DNA of 64,000 nucleotides from Nymphaea colorata (taxonomy: Eukaryota > Streptophyta > Magnoliopsida > Nymphaeales > Nymphaeaceae), in contig NC_045151.1 in NCBI RefSeq assembly GCF_008831285.2, positions 8,864,071 through 8,928,070 on the forward strand, given 5' to 3'. The notes beneath the pieces were generated by a model. That model was not told the origin of the DNA. It ran no database searches and saw only the letters and a list, made by a program, of their open reading frames with translations. Shown in pieces: positions 1,995-29,800 of the stretch. Every line of letters begins with the position of its first letter. Within the stretch, counting starts at the first letter, position 1. A program made the translations under genes and the position numbers.

Positions 1995-4131
1995 AGGTGC
2001 TACCCCTATCTCTCTCCTTTCTTCATTAAGGGCCATGTAACTTCCGCTTTCTTAATCTTAAGACATTTCGTAGGAAACAAGTGGAGCTTTGGGCGGCATC
2101 AAGGTGGTACTAGATTCTTCTTCAAAGCTCAGATTTGCAAAGAGACTGCATCAGTGTCTTCTTGTCAACCGATCCATTGGATATTATCTGGAGATATATT
2201 CCTTTTTCTCTTTCTTATAGTTAGCAATTGTTTGGTATTCAACATTTTTATTGTTCAAGATTATAAAAATATGATAGTTTACTGTTGTTTTAGTTAGCAC
2301 AGTGTAGCAGGACCAATTTTAGTGTTGTAGTTTAAGCTAGTTTACATCTGGATTCGATTTTACCATTATAATCTGAAGATAGGGCCATTCTTCCTAGACT
2401 AGCTTGATTAGCACAATTCGCTGCTTTCTGCTTGCCTATTGTTTACTAAATATGTGTGTTTGCTTTCATTTTCACGTGACTTCTGCTTGTATTGTTTTAC
2501 TAAATATTTTTGTGTACTTTTCTTTTCCAGGAGTTTCTTTAATGAATGTGTTAGGTTAGGCATATTTTGTTGTAAGTTTTAAGAATCTAATTTGTTTAAA
2601 GAGTTAGACTTGACCAGGGGCTGAAAACCTGTTTCTGCCAAGATTTATTGTACGTTCTCGGATTGATCCCAACCCTTCCCGTGCTCAAATAAATCTATCG
2701 TTTTTAGGGTGTCGTCAAAATTTTGTATAAAGTCTTGTTATTTGAAGCACTCTACTTACAGATGGATCTAACATGAGCCGATTTTTGTCAGATTTAATTC
2801 TGGATCTTGGAAGGTTTGTTTTACTTGTTTCTTAGATCTTTCTGTTCTCCATAGAGTATAAATTGTTAAAGAGTACTTTTTTACCTTAGGATTTGATTTC
2901 CTCGAAATTTTGATTTTTTTTAAATTTAATTTGTTTTAGGTGTTTAGTTTTGGTTTATGTCGGAACAGGTTCTATGTAGCATGTTTTTTAAATGTGGTTG
3001 GGCAAGTTTTAGTTAGAGATGGTTTTGTTCTTGTAGTATCTAAAAAACTTACTGAGTGTAGATTATAGGGAATATCAGCAGTCATTTTTGTTTGATTTGT
3101 TTCTACTTGGAACCGACCCATGATTTCTATTCAGAAAGAAGCAGAAAATGGTATTCCTTTTTGCTCGTTTAATAATTCCATCAGAAGCAAAGAGATTTTA
3201 TTGACTTATGGAATTGGGTTTTTTCATGGTTTTTTATGGCATAGATTAGGCTGTTTAAAGCAGAAATTAAGATTTATTTAGCAATCATTTCTTTAAATTT
3301 ATCAGTTCTAACTTCTTTCCATTCTTTCTTGACATATCATATTCCAGATGGGTTTTAGTAATTTTGAAGAGTCGATTCGATCTGTCATCCTACTTATCAA
3401 AAGTAGGCATTTTCTGCTTTTTATCTTGTTTCTGCTATAGTAAAGTAGAGTAAGCTCTACTGTCTTGTTCCACATGTGGTCAAACGAAGCACCTGTGTCT
3501 TCGGTCTTCCAGGCCAGTAGTTTATCTTTGTGACTTCGGCTTAGATAGGCAATGTTTTCTTATTTTTAGGTATAGCAAGTCATGTTTCTCAGTTAGAGTG
3601 AATTTTCCTAGTTAGATCAACGGTGTGTTAGTAAATCTAAGTTGGCATTTTCTGTCCCGAAAGGTCCTTGTTTGCCGTCTGCGGCATGCTGGTGAGCTAG
3701 GAGGAACCGTCGGTTCTTGGTGTGCGCTGCAATTGAGTTGGACATTACCAAAGTGTACTAGACTCGGTGTACAGCTTAACTTGGCCTGGAGGTTATATTA
3801 AAACATGAAAAACCGCTCTACATTTTTGTAGGATATTAGGTCATTTTATTTAATTGCTAAAGTTAAAATTATTTGTTGCTCTTACTTTTGCTTGCACCAT
3901 TGTAATAGAGTTGTTTGCATGTTTATTCAAATTTTGGTTTTACTTTATCGCAATAAAGAGTGCAATTTGTTTGAGATACAGTCTCTTTCGGTCAATTACC
4001 TAAACTCAAACCCAGAATTATCACCGTCAATTAAATATGATGCAAGATTGGACTTGCTTTTTATTCAAAATATTATTTTAGAATCTTTTTGCAAAAAGTT
4101 TAGTACCATTAATGGGTCGAACATCAACCTG
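1995..4131. other. Intergenic DNA, no gene recognised
   Basis: T-rich, non-coding in appearance, with no long open frame in any of six frames and no transposon ends I can identify. Confidence 0.45.
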
Positions 4132-17879: not shown

Positions 17880-20800
17880 AATTAGAATAATTTATGTTTC
17901 TAGTTGGTTCTTTGCAATATTTAATAGTTAGGAGGTCTCTTTAAACATTCCTCTATTTTCTGTAAATCTCTCTTCAACCCTAACCTCTTTATTATGGAGA
18001 TTAGGGTTAGTGAATGAAGTTACGTTTTCTCTCTCTAAGGCTGCCGGCTGTAACATGGTATCAGAGCCGGCGATCTCCACCCTTCTCCGCCGGCGGCTAT
18101 CGTGATTTTCCGGCGACCCCTTCTCCTCTTCCTCTCCCATCTCTTCCCACTTCTTCTCTTCCTCTATCCTTCCTTTCTCTCTTCTCTCTGCTGATCGAAA
18201 GATAGTGAAGCAGCGTGAAAGGGGAACCTAATCACATGTGAAAGGTATTTGTGATTAGGTCCCCAACGTGGATGTACTGGAGCGTAAGCAACTGCGTGAG
18301 TTGCAGTGGAAAGTTGTAAGCCAGATCTAGCTTCGTGGATGAATAGCAGCACATGGACTCCATTATTATTCAGATCTAGGCCCATGGGAAGCGTAGCTGC
18401 ATGTGGATTCAGTTCAGATCTGGGCTCGTGGAAGATTAAATGCACGTGGACCATATTCTTATCATATTTTTTATGACTGTGGAAAAGTGGCTGCAAGTAG
18501 AGTAGCTGCACATTGGGTATATTTTTTTATCAGATTGAATGTCTGTTTTATAATCTAGTGGACTGATTTGGAACAACAAAGTTTTTTTATATGCATATGT
18601 GGATACGTAGAAGCCTGGTGGACTGTTTTGAACAACAAGTTCATATATTCCTGTTCATTTATTGATTGTTGTGATTGGTAGACTGATTTGAACAACAAAG
18701 TTTTTTTTATATGCATATGTGGATACGTAGAAGCCTGGTGGCCTGTTTTGAACAAGAAGTTCGTATATTCTTGTTCATTTATTGATTGCTGTGATTGGTG
18801 GACTGATTTGCTGAGCAGCAAGTTCACAGAAATTCTTTTTAAGGACTGCTTTTGGTGCAAGAAAAAATATATATATATATCTGCTGCCTAAGTTTTCTCA
18901 AGTTGATTGCTGCACGCTATACTCTTGATTGTATCATAGTGCAACCAGATTAAGATCACATTGTCAAGTCATGCACTATGGCCGCTGAAGGCAAGACAGA
19001 GACACAATATGAGCATAAGAACTAAGGCAATCTCTTTTCTTATGGCTCTACTGTAAAGTTAGATGCTCCTAAGTTGGAAGACAGATGTTGGGATAAGCTT
19101 GGTCGTCCTTCCGCTATACCCCTAGGAAAAGGTGTTGCATCTAAGCAGGGCAAGAATTCATTACAGTCTCCTATTGGATCCATCCAGGCAGCTTCATCAG
19201 TAGTAGAGGGGTCTTTACCTTCTTTCAATCCTGAGACTGTGACTGTGAATATCAAACAAGTCAGAGTATGAGGAGTTCTTAGCACACAGATCTACTCAAC
19301 CGTCGGCCTCTACAGTTATGATAGACAGTGCTATGTCTGTTGATACTGCTCCACATGATACATGTACTACTTGGATTATTGATTCAGGAGCATCGAGACA
19401 CTTTTGTAGTAGGCCTTCTATGTTTATCGTGCTACACTCATTACCTCAAACACGTCATGTGAGACTTGCAGATGGTAGATGGTCTCCTATTATGGGTTAT
19501 GGAGATATTAAGATTTCTCGGTCTATGACAATTTCTAATGTGTTATATGCTCCTAAGTTTCCCACTAATCTTTTATCAGTTGGACAATTGATTAATGATT
19601 TACATTGTCGAGTTACATTTGACTCCGGTGTATGTTCATTTCAGGACTTGCAAACTGGGAAGACGATTGGTGGAGGCTATGAGAAAGGGAGCATCTACTT
19701 CCTGTCTAATTCTGTAGGTATTGCAGTCGTCTCGACTTCTTCATTGTCCTCCTCCTTCCAGTGGCATCTCAGACTTGGTCATTCATCTGTCTCCAAGCTC
19801 CGTCACCTACTTCCTCATCTATCAGTTCTAGAGTAGTTCCAGTGTGAGGCCTGTCAACTTCGCAAGCACACTCGTAGCAGTTATTCATCGAGTCTTAGTC
19901 CGTCCAGTTGTGAACTATTTGATCTTCTTCATGTTGATGTGTGGGATCCTAGCAGAGTTGCTAGTAGGTCTAGATTTTGTTATTTCCTCGTCATTGTTGA
20001 ATGTTGATGATTATTCTCGAGTCACTTGGGTTTTTCTTTTGAAAGAAAGGTCTGAGGTCATATGTACTCTCAAGAACCTTATTATTGAAATAAAGACCCA
20101 GTTTGGTATTCTTGTTAAAAGCGTTCGCACTGATAATGCTCTTGAGTTCAAGGCATCTACCTTAATGAAATTTTACTCTGATAATGGCATTTCTCCTCAG
20201 TTTACTTGTCCCCATACCTCCCAGCAAAATGGAGTAGCGGAGCGGAAACATCGCCAACTTTTAAATGTGACACGCTCCCTAATGCTTCATACTAATCTAC
20301 CTGTATATTTTTTGGGAGATGTCATCCTCACTGCCTGTTACTTGACCAACCGTATACCCTCATCCTCCATTGACAACAAGGTTCCCATTAAACTTGTGTA
20401 CCCACAACGATCCTTGTTTCCAGTAGCTCACAAAGTATTTGGTTGCACATGCTTCATTCACATACTTGGACCCACACATGATAAATTGAGTGTCCAAGCC
20501 ATTAAGTGTATCTTTATTGGCTACTCCAGAAATCATAAAGGTTACAAATGCTTTGACCCCTTGACTCAAAAGGAGTATATCAGTGCGGATGTGACATTCT
20601 TTGAGTCTCAACCTTATTATAGTTCCTCACCTGCCTCTACTAAGATGCCATTGTCATCTTACCCACTACCTATTCCTCCTATTCCTTTGGAGTCATTCCC
20701 TTACGAGTCTCCTTCTGGAGATTCTCCCGTTGTAGTGTCCAAGTTTCGTGATCCTCCGCTGGTCTGCACACGTCGACAGGACCCTTCTCATGATCCTTCC

Positions 20801-23800
20801 CCAACCGCTTCTCAGGAGGTAAGTACATCTGAAGTGAGTATACCTAGTCCATCTGATCTCTGTCAGGACTTACCTATTGCTCTTCGTAAAGGCAAGCGAC
20901 AATGTACTCTGCATCCTATATCTCATTTTGTTTCTACTGACGGTGTTGGTAAAAGTATGCAATAGTTTATTCAAGCTCTGGCGGCCCATGCAGTTCCTAC
21001 TTGTCACCAACAGGCCTTATTAGATACCCAATGGAGACAAGCTATGCAAGAAGAGATGGATGCATTAGTTCAGCAAGACACTTGGGAACTTGTTGATCCT
21101 CTTCCTGGTTGTGACATTGTTGGCTCCAAGTGGGTATTCACAGTGAAATATAATTCTGATGGTTCTATGGAAAGATACAAAGCTCGGTTGGTTGCTAAGG
21201 ACTACACACAGACTTACGGGATTGATTTCTTCGAGACTTTCTCTCCTGTTGCTTGGTTGGGGACCATTCGTCTTATCATCTCTGTGGTTGTACGCCATGA
21301 CTGGCACATGTACCAGCTTGATGTCAAAAATGTTTTTTTGTATAATGATCTCGATGAGACTGTCTATATGCAACAACCACCACGGTTTGAACGACAGGGG
21401 GAGTGTGGAAAAGTGTGCAAACTGAAGAAAGCTATTTATGGACTCAAGCAGAGTCCTCGTGCTTGGTTTCACAAGTTCTCTGAGGTAGTCTCAAACTGTG
21501 GCTTTGCGAGATCCCCTCTTGATCATTCTCTGTTTATCAAGAAGAATTCCAGGGGTATGACCGTTCTAGTGGTTTATGTTGATGATATTATCCTGACAGG
21601 TGATTCCGATCAAGAAATTTCTCATACAAAGTTGTTCCTTCAAAAACACTTTGTGACGAAAGATCTTGGTCAACTACGATATTTCTTGGGAATAGATGTG
21701 GCTCGCAACAGGGAAGGTGTAGTTTTCTCTCAACGAAAGTATTTTTTGGATTTATTGCAAGACACCGGGATGCTAGGAGCTAAACCGACCAATCTACCTA
21801 TGAATCCACGCATACATCTTCATGATGACGAATCAGAATTAGTCGATTGTCGATCATACAGGTCTCTTATTGGAAAGCTCCTCTATGTTACCGTGACCAG
21901 ACCAGACGTTAGATTTGCAGTGGGGAAACTAAGTCAATTTATGAAAAGACCCAGGAAAGTTCATTGGGATGCTGCTTTAATGGTGGTCAAATATCTGAAA
22001 TCATCTCCTGGTAAAGGACTTTTGTTCACAAAAGGCAAGACCCTGGAGGTGGAAGCCTATAGTGATGCTGACTATGCTAGCTCAGTCGAAGACATGAAAT
22101 CTACCACAGGATTCTGTGTATTTGTGGAGGGCAAACTTATATCCTGGAGAAGCAAAAAGCAAGGTGTGGTGTCAAGATCTAGTGCAGAGAGCTATGGCTT
22201 AAACTGCCGCTGAAATGACTTGGGCTAAATCCATGCTATCTAGTCTAAGTGTGTCGATTATGCTTCCCATGAAGATGTATTGTGACAATCGAGCAACCAC
22301 ATACATTGCGAATAATCCAGTTTTCCATGAGAGAACTAAACATATTGAAGTGAACTGCCATTACATTCAGGATCTCGTTCAAGGAGGAATCATAACCACC
22401 ATTCATGTATCATCAAAAGATCAAGTTGTAGATGTCTTCACTAAAGCTCTTCCTATTAGTGACTATTCTAGATGTTGTGACAAGCTGAGCATGATTAATA
22501 TGTATGCTCCAGCATGAGGGGGAGTGTTGAATTAGAAGAGTTTATGTTTCTAGGTGGTTCTTTGCAATATTTAATAGTTAGGAGGTCTCTTTAAACATTC
22601 CTCTATTCTCTTTAAACATTCCTCTATTTTCTGTTGATGTACTTTGTAAATCTCTCTTCAACCCTAATCTCTTTATTATGGAGATTAGGGTTGGTGAATG
22701 AAGTAATCTCTAAGGCTGCCGGCTGTAACAATTATAACATGGACTAGCAAGTCCCACTATAGTACAAATATAACAGGTATGTTATTGATAATAACCCACA
22801 TGTGTAAAAGAAAGGACATGTTAAAACAATGGAGGCACCTAAGAGGTCGTTTGATTGCTGTTCATTGGGACAGGACAAACAGGACGTTCTGTCCATTACA
22901 CCACTATCCTGTTCTCATGGACAATGGTGTCCTTTGTCCACCGTTTGATGATTTTAAGAACAAAACATTCTGTTCTTCTTGTCCGGCGTTTGTTTCGCGT
23001 GTGTCTATTTTGTCTGTCTTGTCTGATGTTTGTTTTTGTTCTGTCGATGTTTGTGTCTTTATGTTCCAATCAAATTGTTAGATTTTTTTTTAATTCAATA
23101 CACAAGTGGCCTTAATGATAAGATTTTGACTGATTTCCATAAGTGTTTAGGCAACTAAAGATCATGTTATTAATGCTCATGTGAAATTTAATACAATCAA
23201 TTTACCCACACTAAAAATATATGCTCGTATACATATGATGAGCACTAGCGTGAAGCATGCTCCCTTTAATCTTAATAGAAGGACTTGTTTTAGTTAAAAA
23301 AGAATTATCACAGGACAACAAATAATAAATTACGAAGAAGAAGGAGTGGTTTCTACATGTTCGTCGCTGAGTCACTTTGTCATGAAAATTGAAGCAGAAA
23401 TACATGGTTATTCCATGATATAAATTTACATCACATAATCACCACTGAAACCTATTTGGCACCTGAGCTATCTGGCTTGTGGTAGATAAGAAGTCGATAG
23501 AAATGAGCTGGAAAATTCATAAGAAAATGATGATGAATGTTGAACCTCATCCTCCTTCAGTTGGTTTACTACATCACTCATGTGTGGCCTTGAATGAGAT
23601 GGTTGAGAGGTGCATGACATGGCTATGTCTGCAACTTTCCAAATGGAGTTCACATCATATTGTCCCCTCAGCTTAAGGTCTGCATCACTGGATGTTCCCC
23701 TAGTTAGTCTTGGTGTTACCCACTGAACTATATGAAAAGGCTCTCCAGATACATCAAACATTGGAGGATATCTAGTCATGAGCTCGAAGAAAACCACACC

Positions 23801-26800
23801 GAAGCTATAGACATCGCTCTTCTTGGTGACCAGGTCTTCTTGGTGACCAGATTTGTACTGTAGTACCTGCAAAATCTGTTACTTTTGCTTCCATTTTTGC
23901 ATTTAAAAGAATATTTGATGTTTTCACTTCCCTGTGAATGATTGGTGGATTACATCCGGAGTGTAAGTACTCCAATCCTGCACTAAAAAGAAGGTCAATT
24001 TTTCAAGAATTTCAGTTGATAACGAGGAAGTATTGATAAGACAAGAGGGCTCCCCGATGGAAATAATGGAGAACTAGGACCTCTTGCAATGCTCAGTGCA
24101 TCCTGAAGTCTCTGCTCAACCATGTTAGAAACGCAGATGTGCTAGCCTTTCCTGCAACAGAGGAAACTTAGTATATAAAAATTAACTTGAATCGCTTTTT
24201 CAATTTGTGTTAGTTTGAAGTTATTTCCAACCTCATAGACTTCTCTACTATTTATGATCACTTCAAACTAATAAGATATTAATCCTTTTTTCAAGGACAA
24301 ACTGAGGTTGGAAAGACCCCTACCAGCTTATGCCAAGAGATGTCAATCCCTCTATTAAGGTGGATGGATCTCTTGTTGGCAAATGGAAATAAAAAATTTA
24401 TTAACAACAAACCCTTCTTTTTCCAGCATCTACACATTATTGTCACCGGTCAGGATTCAACGAAGTTCTTAAGACCAGCAATGGTATGGTTCATGATTTC
24501 AATATCATGAGGCCACCAATACTGGACTGATTACAAGCCTAATTGGCCAATATGACCTACCTGAGAGCAGCTGCCTTAGATCCCCCCCACTCATGTTCTC
24601 ATAGAGAAGAATCAGACGTCCACCTTCCTCACAGTAGCCAACAAAGGGGACTAAGCATTTGTTGTGAAATGTAACCAGTAGCTTCACCCAAAATGAGCTA
24701 CAATTCAAAGTCACTAAACATATGCAATATCAACTGAAAACATAGTGAAGCCAAAACAGACCTTTGCCTGCAACTCCTTGGTTCCTTGTGACAGTGAATT
24801 CTTTAGCACCTTGACAGCAAGTTCATGACCATTTTTAAGTCGTCCATAGTATAGACTGTCAGGTCCTCCTTCACCAATTACTTTCTCAAAATTGTTGGTT
24901 ATTTTCACTATCTCTGCATAAGGGAAACCAAGCTTGATTTCTGGTTCTAGAAGAACCACTTTAGGTTTACCATTGCATTCCTAGAGAGATGCGGGCAGTG
25001 ATCCATTCAATTGATTGAGAGTCAAGTTTCTGCTGCATATTATGCACTTATAAGCAGCTGAAATTCGATGCAAGATTAATCAGGTGAAAATAAAACTGTA
25101 AGGTTTTTGCCGCAGTTGCAACAATTACAAACAAGCTTCTCAAAGCTACATCCTGGTGAAAACCACACTTGATCTGTACTTACAACTGCTTCAGATTGGG
25201 AAGATTTCCAAGGAGTTTAGGAATGCCTCATTCGGTATCCCCTTTCAAACAAATCTACATCCTTCTTCAAAGAAAACCCTTGAACCACAGAGGGCAAAGA
25301 AGATGCCAAAGACGGAAGGAAAAGAAAGAGAACATGCAACATAGGGGTTTGAGAGCTTAAGTTTCCCTGCAACGCTTGTAGGAGATGCTGCGTCGGTTCA
25401 CGAAGAAGAAGAACACCATAAAACCCCTCTGCTGCCGCCGGAAATGCATGCTTAAAATGGGCGGAGGGATAGACAAGGGTGGAAAAAACGAGCAGAGAGA
25501 GAGAGAGAGAGAGATTGAGTTTACCTTATCACCACTGCCCAGGAGCCGCTGGAAGATGCTCTACTGAGGAGCTTCTTGAGGACGCCCGCTGAGGAGCTGC
25601 AAGCGATGCGGCAAGAGGAAACGAATAGACTCTGTCCGGCGGTCGCCCTCTCGCAGAGACGGAAGAAAACGAGAGAAACAGAAAGGATCGGGCGACGGAG
25701 GAGAAGGAGATAAACAGGAAGGCTAGGGCAGCTCGGGGCGGAGACGGAGGAGAAAGGCAGCGTAGACGGGGGTGGAGATGGAGGAGAACTGGAGAAGGAG
25801 AAAAAGACGATGACGTCGAGGGCTCGGGCGCTCTGGGTTGTCGGGGGATGGAAGAGTTCTGTCCGTTTCGAGGGTTAGCTCGGAACGGCATGGAACAAGA
25901 AAACTATTTATACTCATGTCTAGTTGTCCGTCGTGTCCAGCCTGTTCGGTGGACAGCGTTTGATCAAATATTTGATTAGACAGGACACGCGTGTCCTGTT
26001 CCGCGTGTCCTGTGGCCATCAAACGACCTCTAAGAGTATCTGGATCCAGATCCTGAAGTTGACATTCACATTCTAACATATTACTAGCCTTATCAGAGTA
26101 AATACAAACTGCAACTAAGAATAAAACAAGCACCATCAAACATCACATAGAAGAATAATTTTCTGAAACACAATTTTCTTTCTTTTTCTCCTAATGCTTG
26201 CCAATCCCTCATTAAATATCTAAATGTTCCCATTACACCCTTTATGAAAATGTACCTTCAACTAAGCCAAAGTAGTGAAATCATCCTAGCACCTAACAGA
26301 ACAAGTCCAAAGTCCATGCTTCCTACATGACAGAAATTTTGAGAAAAGATGCAACTTATGTCAAGTAAGTCAAAGTGAAATTATTTCAGAAATAACAGTT
26401 AAACATTACAGGACAAAGTCCATAGTCCACACTTTTGTGGTCTATCGAAATGCAAACACTAGATAATGACATCTAACACTGATAGGTTGGCAGCAGTAAA
26501 TATAAAAGTTAAAAGAACAGTAACCCAAAAACCAACTATAATCAACTTTTTAAGCAAAGTCACCTTTGCTCGTCTGAAGAATGAAACAAAATCATCATCT
26601 GCAAGCTGACCTATGCACCATTGGACCCATATAACATCATACCTTCCAACTTCTGGGGTGAAATCCTGTCATAGAAACTAAACTTTATAGTCAGTGACAG
26701 ACCTCACATTAGAAAAGATGATCAAGAGAAAGATACACTACCTGCAAAGACACACAAAAGAAGTTCACAGCCCTGTGCATTTCAGAATCTAACTCCTTTT

Positions 26801-29800
26801 CCACAGCTAAACTTTGACGAGCCGTCTCTAGGAAATGTGAAACTGGTTCAACCAGATCAACCTAATCCAAATTATATTGTACCATAAACCGTTTAAGAGA
26901 AAACAGCACCCCGGAGCTTCCAAAATTCAAGAAGAACAAACCCAAGAAGGAAAAGGCAAAAGGACACATAGTAGTGAGGAAAAAAGCCAACAAAACTATA
27001 GAAAACAGATCAATTAGTAAAAGTACTAACTGATTTGGGAGTGAATACACAGCTTCTGAGAGAAAATACAATAACTGCCGAATATTAAGACATCTTTTCT
27101 TCAACAAAGGTTTTTGGCTAACTGATTTTGGACAAATTCAGCTGTTGAAGGGAAATACAACGGTATAACTGCTGAATATGGAAACAGCCTTTTCATCCAC
27201 GTTTCTGAAAGTTCAACATTTGAAGATCTGGCATCGTAAATTCTCCAACCACTGGAGATGACCACAAGGTAAAGATGAGGACATAACCAGCAAATGTGGT
27301 TAGAAAAAGAAACTGGACATGATAAGGTTTCATTACCAAAGTTACATTTTTTTTACGAAAAATGTTGTTTTAACAAAGAGCAACCAAAGGAACTGGAACA
27401 CTAAGTAAAACTAGCAAAATAATTTACCAAATAACTTCTTTAGATGGTCTTTTCACATAAAAATATCAAAAAAAAAAAAAAAAACATTTCCAACAAAGCA
27501 ACAAGAGATGCCCTTCAGCAGCCAACCATAAAAATGCAGGAATCAGCAAGAAGTGTTAATCAGAAACATCATATCAAAAGCAAGCAAATGGGGAAAAAGT
27601 GTGATATATCTGTTGTTACCTCATTAAAATACCTAAGGAGAAGATTCTTTGTAACTCTTCCAATACCAGAACCACAATCTACACAAAATGTTACGCACTG
27701 GTCAGGACCTATAAAAAGACCTAATATGACCAATAAGACACTACCAGCTGAAAATGAATATAGGAAGTTGATTACTCAAATTTCAACCCATTTTTCAGCA
27801 GACTTGATTACCATTTGCCATGATAGACATTCCCCATTGCACTAGAAAACACACACAAAATGAGACACCCTAGCAAGTCCATTTTTGCCAATATGAATAT
27901 TTCAACCAGAATACCTGATCAACTAAAGATCATCAAGAGGAAATATTTACTGAATAACCTTGGCAAAAAACCTCGGTTCATTGATGCTTTCATTTGTAAC
28001 TGTAGAAACACGAAAAATAGGAAAAAGAATACGATGAACACGATGTAACGTGGAAAAACCCTCAACAAGAGGGAAAAAACCACGGATGAGGAAGAACTGG
28101 TGCCCACTAGCAACCAGACTCTCTCTCTCTTAAGATTTCATTCACACCCAAAAATTAGGGTTACCAAGATACAAGTAGAGTCTCAACAGGCCTAAACAGG
28201 AGCACACACTGGACCGGGTCCAGACCCAAACCCGTACATTAAAACACGTCAACACTCCCCATCAAGTTGGGCATACAGATCAAACATGTCCAACTTGGAT
28301 ACATTTCTCTCAAATGAAGTTGAAGACAAGGCTTTGGTCAGGACATCAGCTCTTCAGATCTCATATAAGGAAGTACAAGTTCTTTAGCATCAATTCTTTC
28401 TCGAATGAAATGCCGATCAATCTCAACATGCTTTGTTCTGTCATGAAGCACAGGGTTGTTGGCCAAGTTGATTGTTGACTTGTTATCGCAATACATCTTC
28501 ATTGGTTCTTCAACTTTTATACTAATATCAGTCAACAATATTTTCAGCCACAAAAGCTCAGAAACTCTCATAGCAACAGCTCTGCATTCTGCTTCAGCAC
28601 TGGAACAAGAACAAACGTCTTGCCTCTTACTCCTCCACACCATGAGATTCCCTCCCAAATAGATACAATAGCCAGAGGTGGACCTCCTAGTGTCAATACA
28701 GCCTACCCAGTCTGCATCTGAATAACCTTCAATCCCAAGAGCGTCTTGCTTAACATACAAGAGACCTTTGTCAGGATTCCTCTTCAAGTAGCATAAGATC
28801 CTGTCGACAGCCTTCAAGTGAGCATCCATGGGAGCATGCATGAACTGACTCATCACATTCACAGCAAAGGTAATATCAGGTCTAGTGAGAGTAAGATAAA
28901 TCAACTTCCCTACAAGACATTGATATCTTCTTTTGGCCTCTTCACAGAGAGGCTCCCCATCTCTAAGACTTAGCTTATGGCCAGCATCTAGAGGAGTAGA
29001 AGCTAGTCTACACCCCAGTTTCCCGGTCTCCTTTAACAAATCTAGAGTGTACTTCCATTGATTGAGCACGAGGCTAGTCCCAGACCTAGCAATTTCAATG
29101 CCAAGGAAATATTTCAACTTACCAAGGTCCTTGAGATCAAACTCGATCGCCAACAGTTTCTTTAACTTAATTATTTCATCTTCATCATCACCTGTAACAA
29201 TCATATCATCAACATATACCAACAAAATAGTAACCTTTTGCTCATTTCTCTTCACAAAGAGTGTATGATCTCCATTCCCTTGATGGTATCCACATTGTCT
29301 CATGACAAGTCTAAGTCGTTCAAACCATGCTCGAGGAGATTGTTTGAGCCCATATAAAGCTTTCCTTAGCTTGCAACATTTTCCAGGTTCCTCATATCCT
29401 GGAGGCATACACATATATACTTCCTCTTCAAGGTCTCCATTGAGAAAAGCGTTCTTGACATCAAGTTGGTACATCTTCCACTCCTTCATCACAGCTAAGG
29501 AGATAATGACTCTAACAGTCTTCATCTTCGCAACAGGAGCAAATGTCTCAAAGTAATCAATCTCATATTTTTGACTAAACCCCTTGGCCACAAGAAGAGC
29601 TTTGTATCTTTCAACACTTCCATCTGGTTTGTACTTGATGGTGTAGACCCACTTAGATCCAACCAAGTGAGCCGCCTCAGGAATCTTTACAACTTCTCAT
29701 GTCATGTTTCTTCTCAGGGCTTCCATCTCTTCTTGCATTGCATAAGTTCACTTGGGATCACTCTGAGCCTCAGCAACATTCCTGAGAATCATAGCCAAAG

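Follow-up and report, generated by a model that had tools for sequence, protein, structure and literature searches.

A non-autonomous PIF/Harbinger element carrying receptor-kinase DNA in Nymphaea colorata

The element and its transposon family

Do the ends of a PIF/Harbinger-type transposon in Nymphaea colorata enclose a piece of a receptor-kinase gene that moves with them, and by what route was such a piece acquired? The question is raised by a 3188-bp segment of the 64,000-nucleotide stretch analysed here (the window; contig NC_045151.1, positions 8,864,071 to 8,928,070 of assembly GCF_008831285.2). An earlier sequence-only reading had described it as an element of this type. The segment occupies window positions 22843-26030 (G000:C14:8886913-8890100); positions marked EL count from window 22843. 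We regard it as almost certainly a non-autonomous, gene-carrying (Pack-type) PIF/Harbinger element. About 0.24 kb of family DNA on the left and 0.8 kb on the right enclose about 2.1 kb of kinase-locus DNA, and the unit is present in two complete copies; it lacks a transposase, holds host gene DNA between its terminal inverted repeats (TIRs), and its cargo has moved with it.

The 13-bp TIRs, GAGGTCGTTTGAT, are exact and lie at 22843-22855 (+ strand) and 26018-26030 (- strand). Even with one mismatch allowed, the window contains no other match; 0.07 are expected, and none of 100 shuffles reaches two. The trinucleotide TAA stands directly outside both ends, at 22840-22842 and at 26031-26033, as a target-site duplication (TSD). 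The perfect inverted ends and the TAA duplication of the sequence-only reading are therefore borne out, the pair being alone in the window. So is the stated lack of a transposase: a tblastn search (E 1e-5) that used the Myb piece and both transposase pieces of the related element L025 found no match inside the element.

The exact 13-mer occurs at 317 sites (159 + 158) in the 408-Mb assembly, against 11 sites for the reversed pattern used as a control. It is preceded by TAA at 119 sites and by TTA at 147, together 266 of the 317. Pairing within 15 kb drew on 100 of the 119 and 100 of the 147 places and on exact ends only, so that the pair counts are lower bounds. At least 41 convergent pairs were found (twice, two pairs share one partner), and in 34 of the 41 the duplications match (binomial P 1.3e-5 against one half). 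Twenty-seven further complete elements out of these 34 were fetched with 100-bp flanks (L034-L060); the remaining seven are a copy on C9 (see below), two MITE-like (miniature inverted-repeat transposable element) members of 120 bp (C1:18656479) and 232 bp (C6:7226489), and four elements over 5 kb.

Relatives that share these ends have coding capacity. In L025 (C10:1239515-1246601, 7087 bp) both TIRs recur, together with a TAA duplication and 88% identity to EL 1-181, and open reading frame (ORF) pieces there match Myb_DNA-bind_3 (PF12776, E 2.1e-7 over 41 residues) and DDE_Tnp_4 (PF13359, E 3.2e-18). When its protein pieces were searched by tblastn across the 27 elements, all three were found in L058 and one transposase piece in L054, with no match in the other 25. 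The transposase in L025 and L058 reads inward from the right end. The TTA/TAA duplications, the short TIRs common to transposase-encoding relatives, and the DDE_Tnp_4 and Myb/SANT-like proteins place the family in PIF/Harbinger. The Myb-like protein and DDE transposase of these relatives would move the present element in trans by recognition of its ends.

The complete C9 copy (C9:7776069-7779281) is 93% identical to the window copy over its whole length. Its TIRs are exact and TAA stands next to each of them; the 1-kb flanks of the two copies do not match each other. Since this copy has its own TAA duplication and non-matching flanks, the element has transposed as one unit, cargo included. The search for other copies with the same ends, which the sequence-only reading had suggested, thus yielded one with the whole cargo between its own TIRs and duplication. 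A third copy, on C5 (from C5:5105073), matches EL 1-563 and 706-2266; neither a right end nor any family match was found in the 1846 bases fetched beyond. A paralogous empty site was sought in this genome with 63 bp of left flank joined to about 146 bp of right flank, and this query matched only its own two sides.

Both terminal regions belong to the family. The left one (22843-23084, + strand, EL 1-242) recurs from EL 1 to about 200 at 82-91% in most of the family copies listed, and over EL 1-242 at 81% in the complete element L055. The right internal and terminal DNA (25223-26030, - strand, EL 2381-3188) has counterparts in L012 (1812 bp, with a TTA duplication), L013 and L014, which are 73-77% identical to it along most of its length. 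The kinase part has no match in these three, and besides the right side only the left end of L012 matches the element. About 0.5 kb of the right side (approximately EL 2381-2880) is also present in longer repeats on C6, C13, C1, C313 and C5 (L027-L031) without recognisable family ends, four of which match one another over most of the 2.9 kb fetched.

The right side also carries a TATAAAT box (25906-25912, - strand), 119 bp in from the right end and reading into the cargo. In a survey of the terminal 250 bp on either side of 31 elements (the window and C9 copies, L025, L012 and the 27 fetched), a TATA-type box was found in 25 of 28 recognisable right ends (at 96-119 bp) versus 4 of 28 left ends (at 220-243 bp), the elements being related and the counts therefore non-independent. 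The sequence-only reading had given the kinase fragment a TATA-like box of its own; the box is instead the transposon family's, facing the cargo.

The receptor-kinase cargo and its donor locus

The cargo (EL 243-2387; window 23085-25229, sense on the - strand) aligns in three blocks, at 82, 88 and 91% identity, to a single locus on C6 (L011:5529-2368), exons and introns alike. It comprises the 3′ half of a malectin/leucine-rich repeat (LRR)-I receptor-kinase gene, beginning in the LRR region, and about 0.4 kb of DNA downstream of the final exon. The alignment to the parental gene called for in the sequence-only reading thus located the donor and mapped the capture breakpoints, and it upholds the proposal of kinase pieces with retained introns.

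The captured pieces, all on the - strand, are a C-lobe exon (23471-23878; PF07714, E 1.7e-6), a catalytic-loop exon with HRD changed to HRE (23805-24002; PF00069, E 6e-8), a further kinase exon (24505-24729; 88% identical to the donor protein, its PF07714 match at E 0.003 being below cut-off), an N-lobe exon (24714-24980; 85% identical to the donor N-lobe, with the glycine loop altered in the window copy) and a fragment of the LRR region with an intron (24958-25229; 91% DNA identity to L011:2641-2368). Neither the N-lobe ORF nor the single LRR-region window ORF tested has a Pfam match. Of the four pieces named in the sequence-only reading, therefore, the C-lobe and catalytic loop are recognised by Pfam and the N-lobe and LRR region by identity to the donor; the correction is that about 0.24 and 0.65 kb of donor DNA are skipped between them.

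The donor itself has Malectin_like matches (PF12819, E 4e-39 and 9e-23), a kinase match (PF00069, E 9e-15), a transmembrane (TM) segment recognised by eye, and an LRR ORF with matches below cut-off (LRR_4, E 9e-4; LRR_1, E 0.0045). Because Malectin_like and kinase domains stand together with a weak LRR match, it is an LRR-I (malectin-like) receptor-kinase locus, now on C6. It sits among related kinase copies at C6:1.34-1.48 Mb, whose identity is 67-84% for pieces longer than 100 bp and reaches 89% for shorter pieces. Relative to one paralog, L007, the donor lacks one C-lobe base, giving a frameshift (L011:4840-4860). The window copy has the same 1-bp loss; it has lost another 2 bp as well, and with the two losses together its C-lobe frame is open again. 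About 17 bp are lost at this place in the C9 and C5 copies. The common frameshift speaks for the C6 locus, or a direct ancestor of it, as the donor, and the donor may already have been a pseudogene before the capture.

Four joints delimit the cargo. On the left, family DNA runs to about EL 242 and cargo begins at 243, with GATT(T) common to both and the exact point blurred by a T-run; on the right, the switch from cargo to family DNA falls within EL 2381-2387 (window 25223-25229), a 4-bp ATGC being common to both. The two internal joints lie at 23870-23872, where the activation loop and the following intron are missing (about 0.24 kb of donor), and at 24958-24960, where the TM exon and its flanking introns are missing (about 0.65 kb); each has 3-bp microhomology, TTG and ACT respectively. 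Three to four bases, at least three in every case, are thus common at all four joints (rough chance 1.6e-5 under random sequence). In the paralog L007 the activation-loop exon is retained, as is a related TM exon. These segments were thus lost from the element rather than gained by the donor; insertion into the donor is ruled out in this way for the coding parts. Both internal joints are present in the window, C9 and C5 copies, and the loss therefore predates the copying. An RNA intermediate or precise intron loss is ruled out for the two segments, each of which removes exon and intron together.

The order of events is also reflected in divergence. In the cargo, Kimura two-parameter (K2P) distances are 0.016-0.026 between the copies and 0.12-0.15 between the copies and the donor, so that, under equal rates, the capture would be several times older than the split of the copies. 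The transposon ends of the three copies (window 22843-23084 and 25223-26030 versus L009 and L010) are two to three times as divergent as the cargo, at 0.042-0.082 over 249-1041 sites. Transitions make up 80-90% of the substitutions between copies in the ends versus about two thirds in the cargo, an excess that would fit methylated cytosines.

Other captures and the route of acquisition

The kinase capture does not stand alone in this family. Thirteen of the 25 surveyed elements that gave no transposase match contain at least 0.9 kb of interior unmatched elsewhere in the 31-element set, and four of these interiors (L042, L044, L049 and L053) were covered by a genome search. That of L049 comes from one locus, C11:7440591-7443717, in four blocks; this source contains Peptidase_S10 pieces (E 5e-15 and 7e-13; carboxypeptidase), and the genome search found no second copy of the interior. 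The interior of L053 (C8:19829584-19833068) consists of five tiles from four loci on C12, C5, C10 and C8; a 62-bp stretch from C5 is present in duplicate and brackets a 1-kb piece from C12. No family ends were found at its source loci in the 1.4-2.5 kb fetched for each.

The L042 interior has pieces matching at least five loci, on C8 (bL28), C2, C8, C11 and C3; L067 also matches, but as a sister element it was left out of the source count. The bL28 piece, a plastid-type ribosomal protein, is matched in Pfam (E 3e-18) and in PDB by L28 of 4v61 (E 6e-36) and plastid bL28c of 5mlc (E 1e-34). Other L042 pieces (87-96%) are also present in stretches on C10 and C9 that adjoin family ends, and judging from these matches they may have been passed between family members instead of being captured afresh each time. 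In L044 the interior is mixed: one 0.97-kb block matches L073, a locus without family ends. Its long match elsewhere, on C4, has a family TIR about 0.4 kb away and so probably represents a sister element, which weakens L044 as a clean host capture. Second copies at 98-99% were found for L042 (2594 of 2727 bases in one piece), L044 and L053. The second copy of the L042 chimera (99%, C3:13222530-13227819) is a longer element with a matching TSD and apparently a further insertion.

With Pfam, only one of 20 interior ORFs from other elements passes the cut-off (bL28 in L042); Peptidase_S10 in L049 (E 5e-4) and Glyoxalase in L047 fall below it. Among eight source-locus ORFs, two with Peptidase_S10 and one with L28 pass, and five have no match. 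No bias of cargo orientation relative to the promoter is claimed: the kinase, carboxypeptidase and bL28 pieces are in sense, but the L042 pieces from L068 and L069 are opposite by their longest ORFs.

How was the kinase DNA taken up? Microhomology at all four joints is suggestive of repair-type capture, the joints having been placed by hand. The capture would then have come about by template switching during repair at the element, guided by microhomology; this would account for the outer joints and also for the stretches of donor DNA that were skipped. The doubled C5 stretch in L053 has the pattern that would be expected of template switching. A different route is offered by the local-hopping model of Pack-CACTA elements, in which two PIF elements would have landed on either side of the kinase gene, lost their inner ends and then become mobile together by their outer ends. 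Such fusion of neighbours would bring along introns and flanking DNA without RNA, and the Pack-TYPE paper both proposes this model and considers it for PIF elements (PMC8903248). Against it, the 7-kb donor stretch (L011) contains no family TIR at up to two mismatches, and no inner TIR relic is found near the element joints at up to three. Two internal donor segments are also missing at joints with 3-bp microhomology, and a single local fusion does not yield an interior like that of L053, whose pieces come from four chromosomes, one locus on each, with one locus contributing twice. We therefore consider neighbour fusion an unlikely route here, though the one rival that keeps appreciable weight.

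Several points weigh against the account of a captured, transposed and transcribed kinase fragment given here. The figure of 1.6e-5 presumes random sequence and hand-placed joints, of which the left is blurred by its T-run. The tiles of L053 abut or leave up to 23 unexplained bases, without overlap, and the joints of L049 are unclear; microhomology is accordingly not upheld as a signature of the whole family. The frameshift argument for the donor relies on L007 as its only outgroup, and the empty-site evidence is confined to this one genome. Finally, transcription from the element's promoter is a prediction: the cargo may be transcribed from it.

Fate of the cargo

If that prediction is correct, sense transcripts of the kinase remnant would here arise from the conserved right-end promoter, whose counterpart in relatives faces the transposase gene. 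The packed kinase could be thought of as co-opted or still working, perhaps as a truncated decoy under selection, since it lies in sense orientation behind a conserved TATA box, the N-lobe frame is open in all three copies, and the C-lobe frame of the window copy is open again. However, all three copies have HRE for HRD and lack both the activation loop and the TM exon, the glycine loop is altered in the window copy, the C9 copy has a stop codon in the C-lobe, and the roughly 17-bp loss in the C9 and C5 copies and the frameshift in the donor itself point the same way. The captured copy does not show the HRD, DFG and activation-loop features of a functional kinase. Because HRD is lost, the activation loop and TM exon are gone, and C9 has a stop, kinase activity of the copies appears very unlikely, and co-option is correspondingly a very improbable reading. 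The protein would be without catalytic residues, activation loop and membrane anchor. Most likely, then, the cargo is a passenger that could at most supply RNA related to the parental gene cluster.

A further rival takes the ends as a mere frame, with independent MITE-like insertions or a coincidental repeat around an immobile kinase pseudogene; ends that occur as independent short MITEs were named by the sequence-only reading as one finding that would overturn it. Short elements with the same ends do exist (120 and 232 bp), but the C9 copy, with the same 3.2 kb, exact TIRs, its own TAA duplication and non-matching flanks, refutes this idea, to which we give practically no credence.

As to the surroundings of the Pack-type element, Ty1-copia-like polyprotein ORFs flank it in the window at 19249-22213 (+ strand) and 28338-29696 (- strand), judging their translations by eye.

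Comparison with known gene-capturing elements

In rice, Pack-MULEs (gene-carrying Mutator-like elements) hold gene fragments between their TIRs, with several loci per element and introns kept. They belong to the Mutator superfamily and have longer TIRs and a 9-bp TSD, in contrast to the 13-bp TIRs and TAA/TTA TSD found here. We tentatively suggest, as a proposal that we hold at somewhat less than even confidence, that the present PIF/Harbinger family is a serial gene-fragment assembler comparable to the rice Pack-MULEs, with a cargo slot faced by the promoter, up to five host loci joined by template-switching repair, recent transposition (copies at 98-99%) and a steady output of promoter-equipped chimeric transcripts.

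Closer relatives have been described within PIF/Harbinger. The Pack-PIFs of maize and rice reported in 2022 (Gisby and Catoni, PMC8903248) are likewise non-autonomous, with PIF-type TIRs, mostly a TTA/TAA TSD, a host gene fragment and several copies. In Zm-Pack-PIF cluster 18 the captures are 163 and 58 bp and the elements average 535 bp (PMC8903248), whereas here about 2.1 kb of one locus was taken with introns, and donor and joints are resolved. Transduplication by grapevine PIF elements, reported in 2008, involves additional sequence, as much as 3.5 kb, that matches exons and introns and is in some cases common to multiple copies (Benjak et al., PMC2528002). The grapevine element Pifvine-3 resembles the present case in superfamily, in extra regions with exons and introns, and in that some are multi-copy, but there the additional sequence takes the form of a long 5′ region adjoining ORF1 and the transposase (PMC2528002), whereas here the cargo lies in an element without transposase and the family includes a four-locus mosaic. 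Turmoil-1 of C. elegans also belongs to the Harbinger superfamily and contains host coding pieces; unlike here, its captures sit within 760-bp inverted repeats of a transposase-bearing element (PMC2572040). The sequence-only reading had called gene capture much less often described for PIF/Harbinger-like elements than for MULEs and Helitrons. Among the papers searched few do describe it, but the grapevine and the maize and rice cases are precedents (PMC2528002, PMC8903248), and the claim of rarity holds only in part. The phenomenon is thus known but seldom described for this class, and our literature search found no paper on gene capture by the PIF elements of this plant.

What is new here is a resolved donor with its joints, a family that includes multi-locus mosaics, and a conserved promoter facing the cargo. 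This one case gives the donor, the recipient and the breakpoints; it places capture ahead of copying, and it is set in a family in which other captures occur, one of them from four loci. It thereby makes the acquisition of host DNA by TIR transposons testable by sequence, since neighbour fusion and template-switching repair predict different joints. The promoter facing the cargo, in turn, suggests a route by which captured fragments may come to be transcribed.

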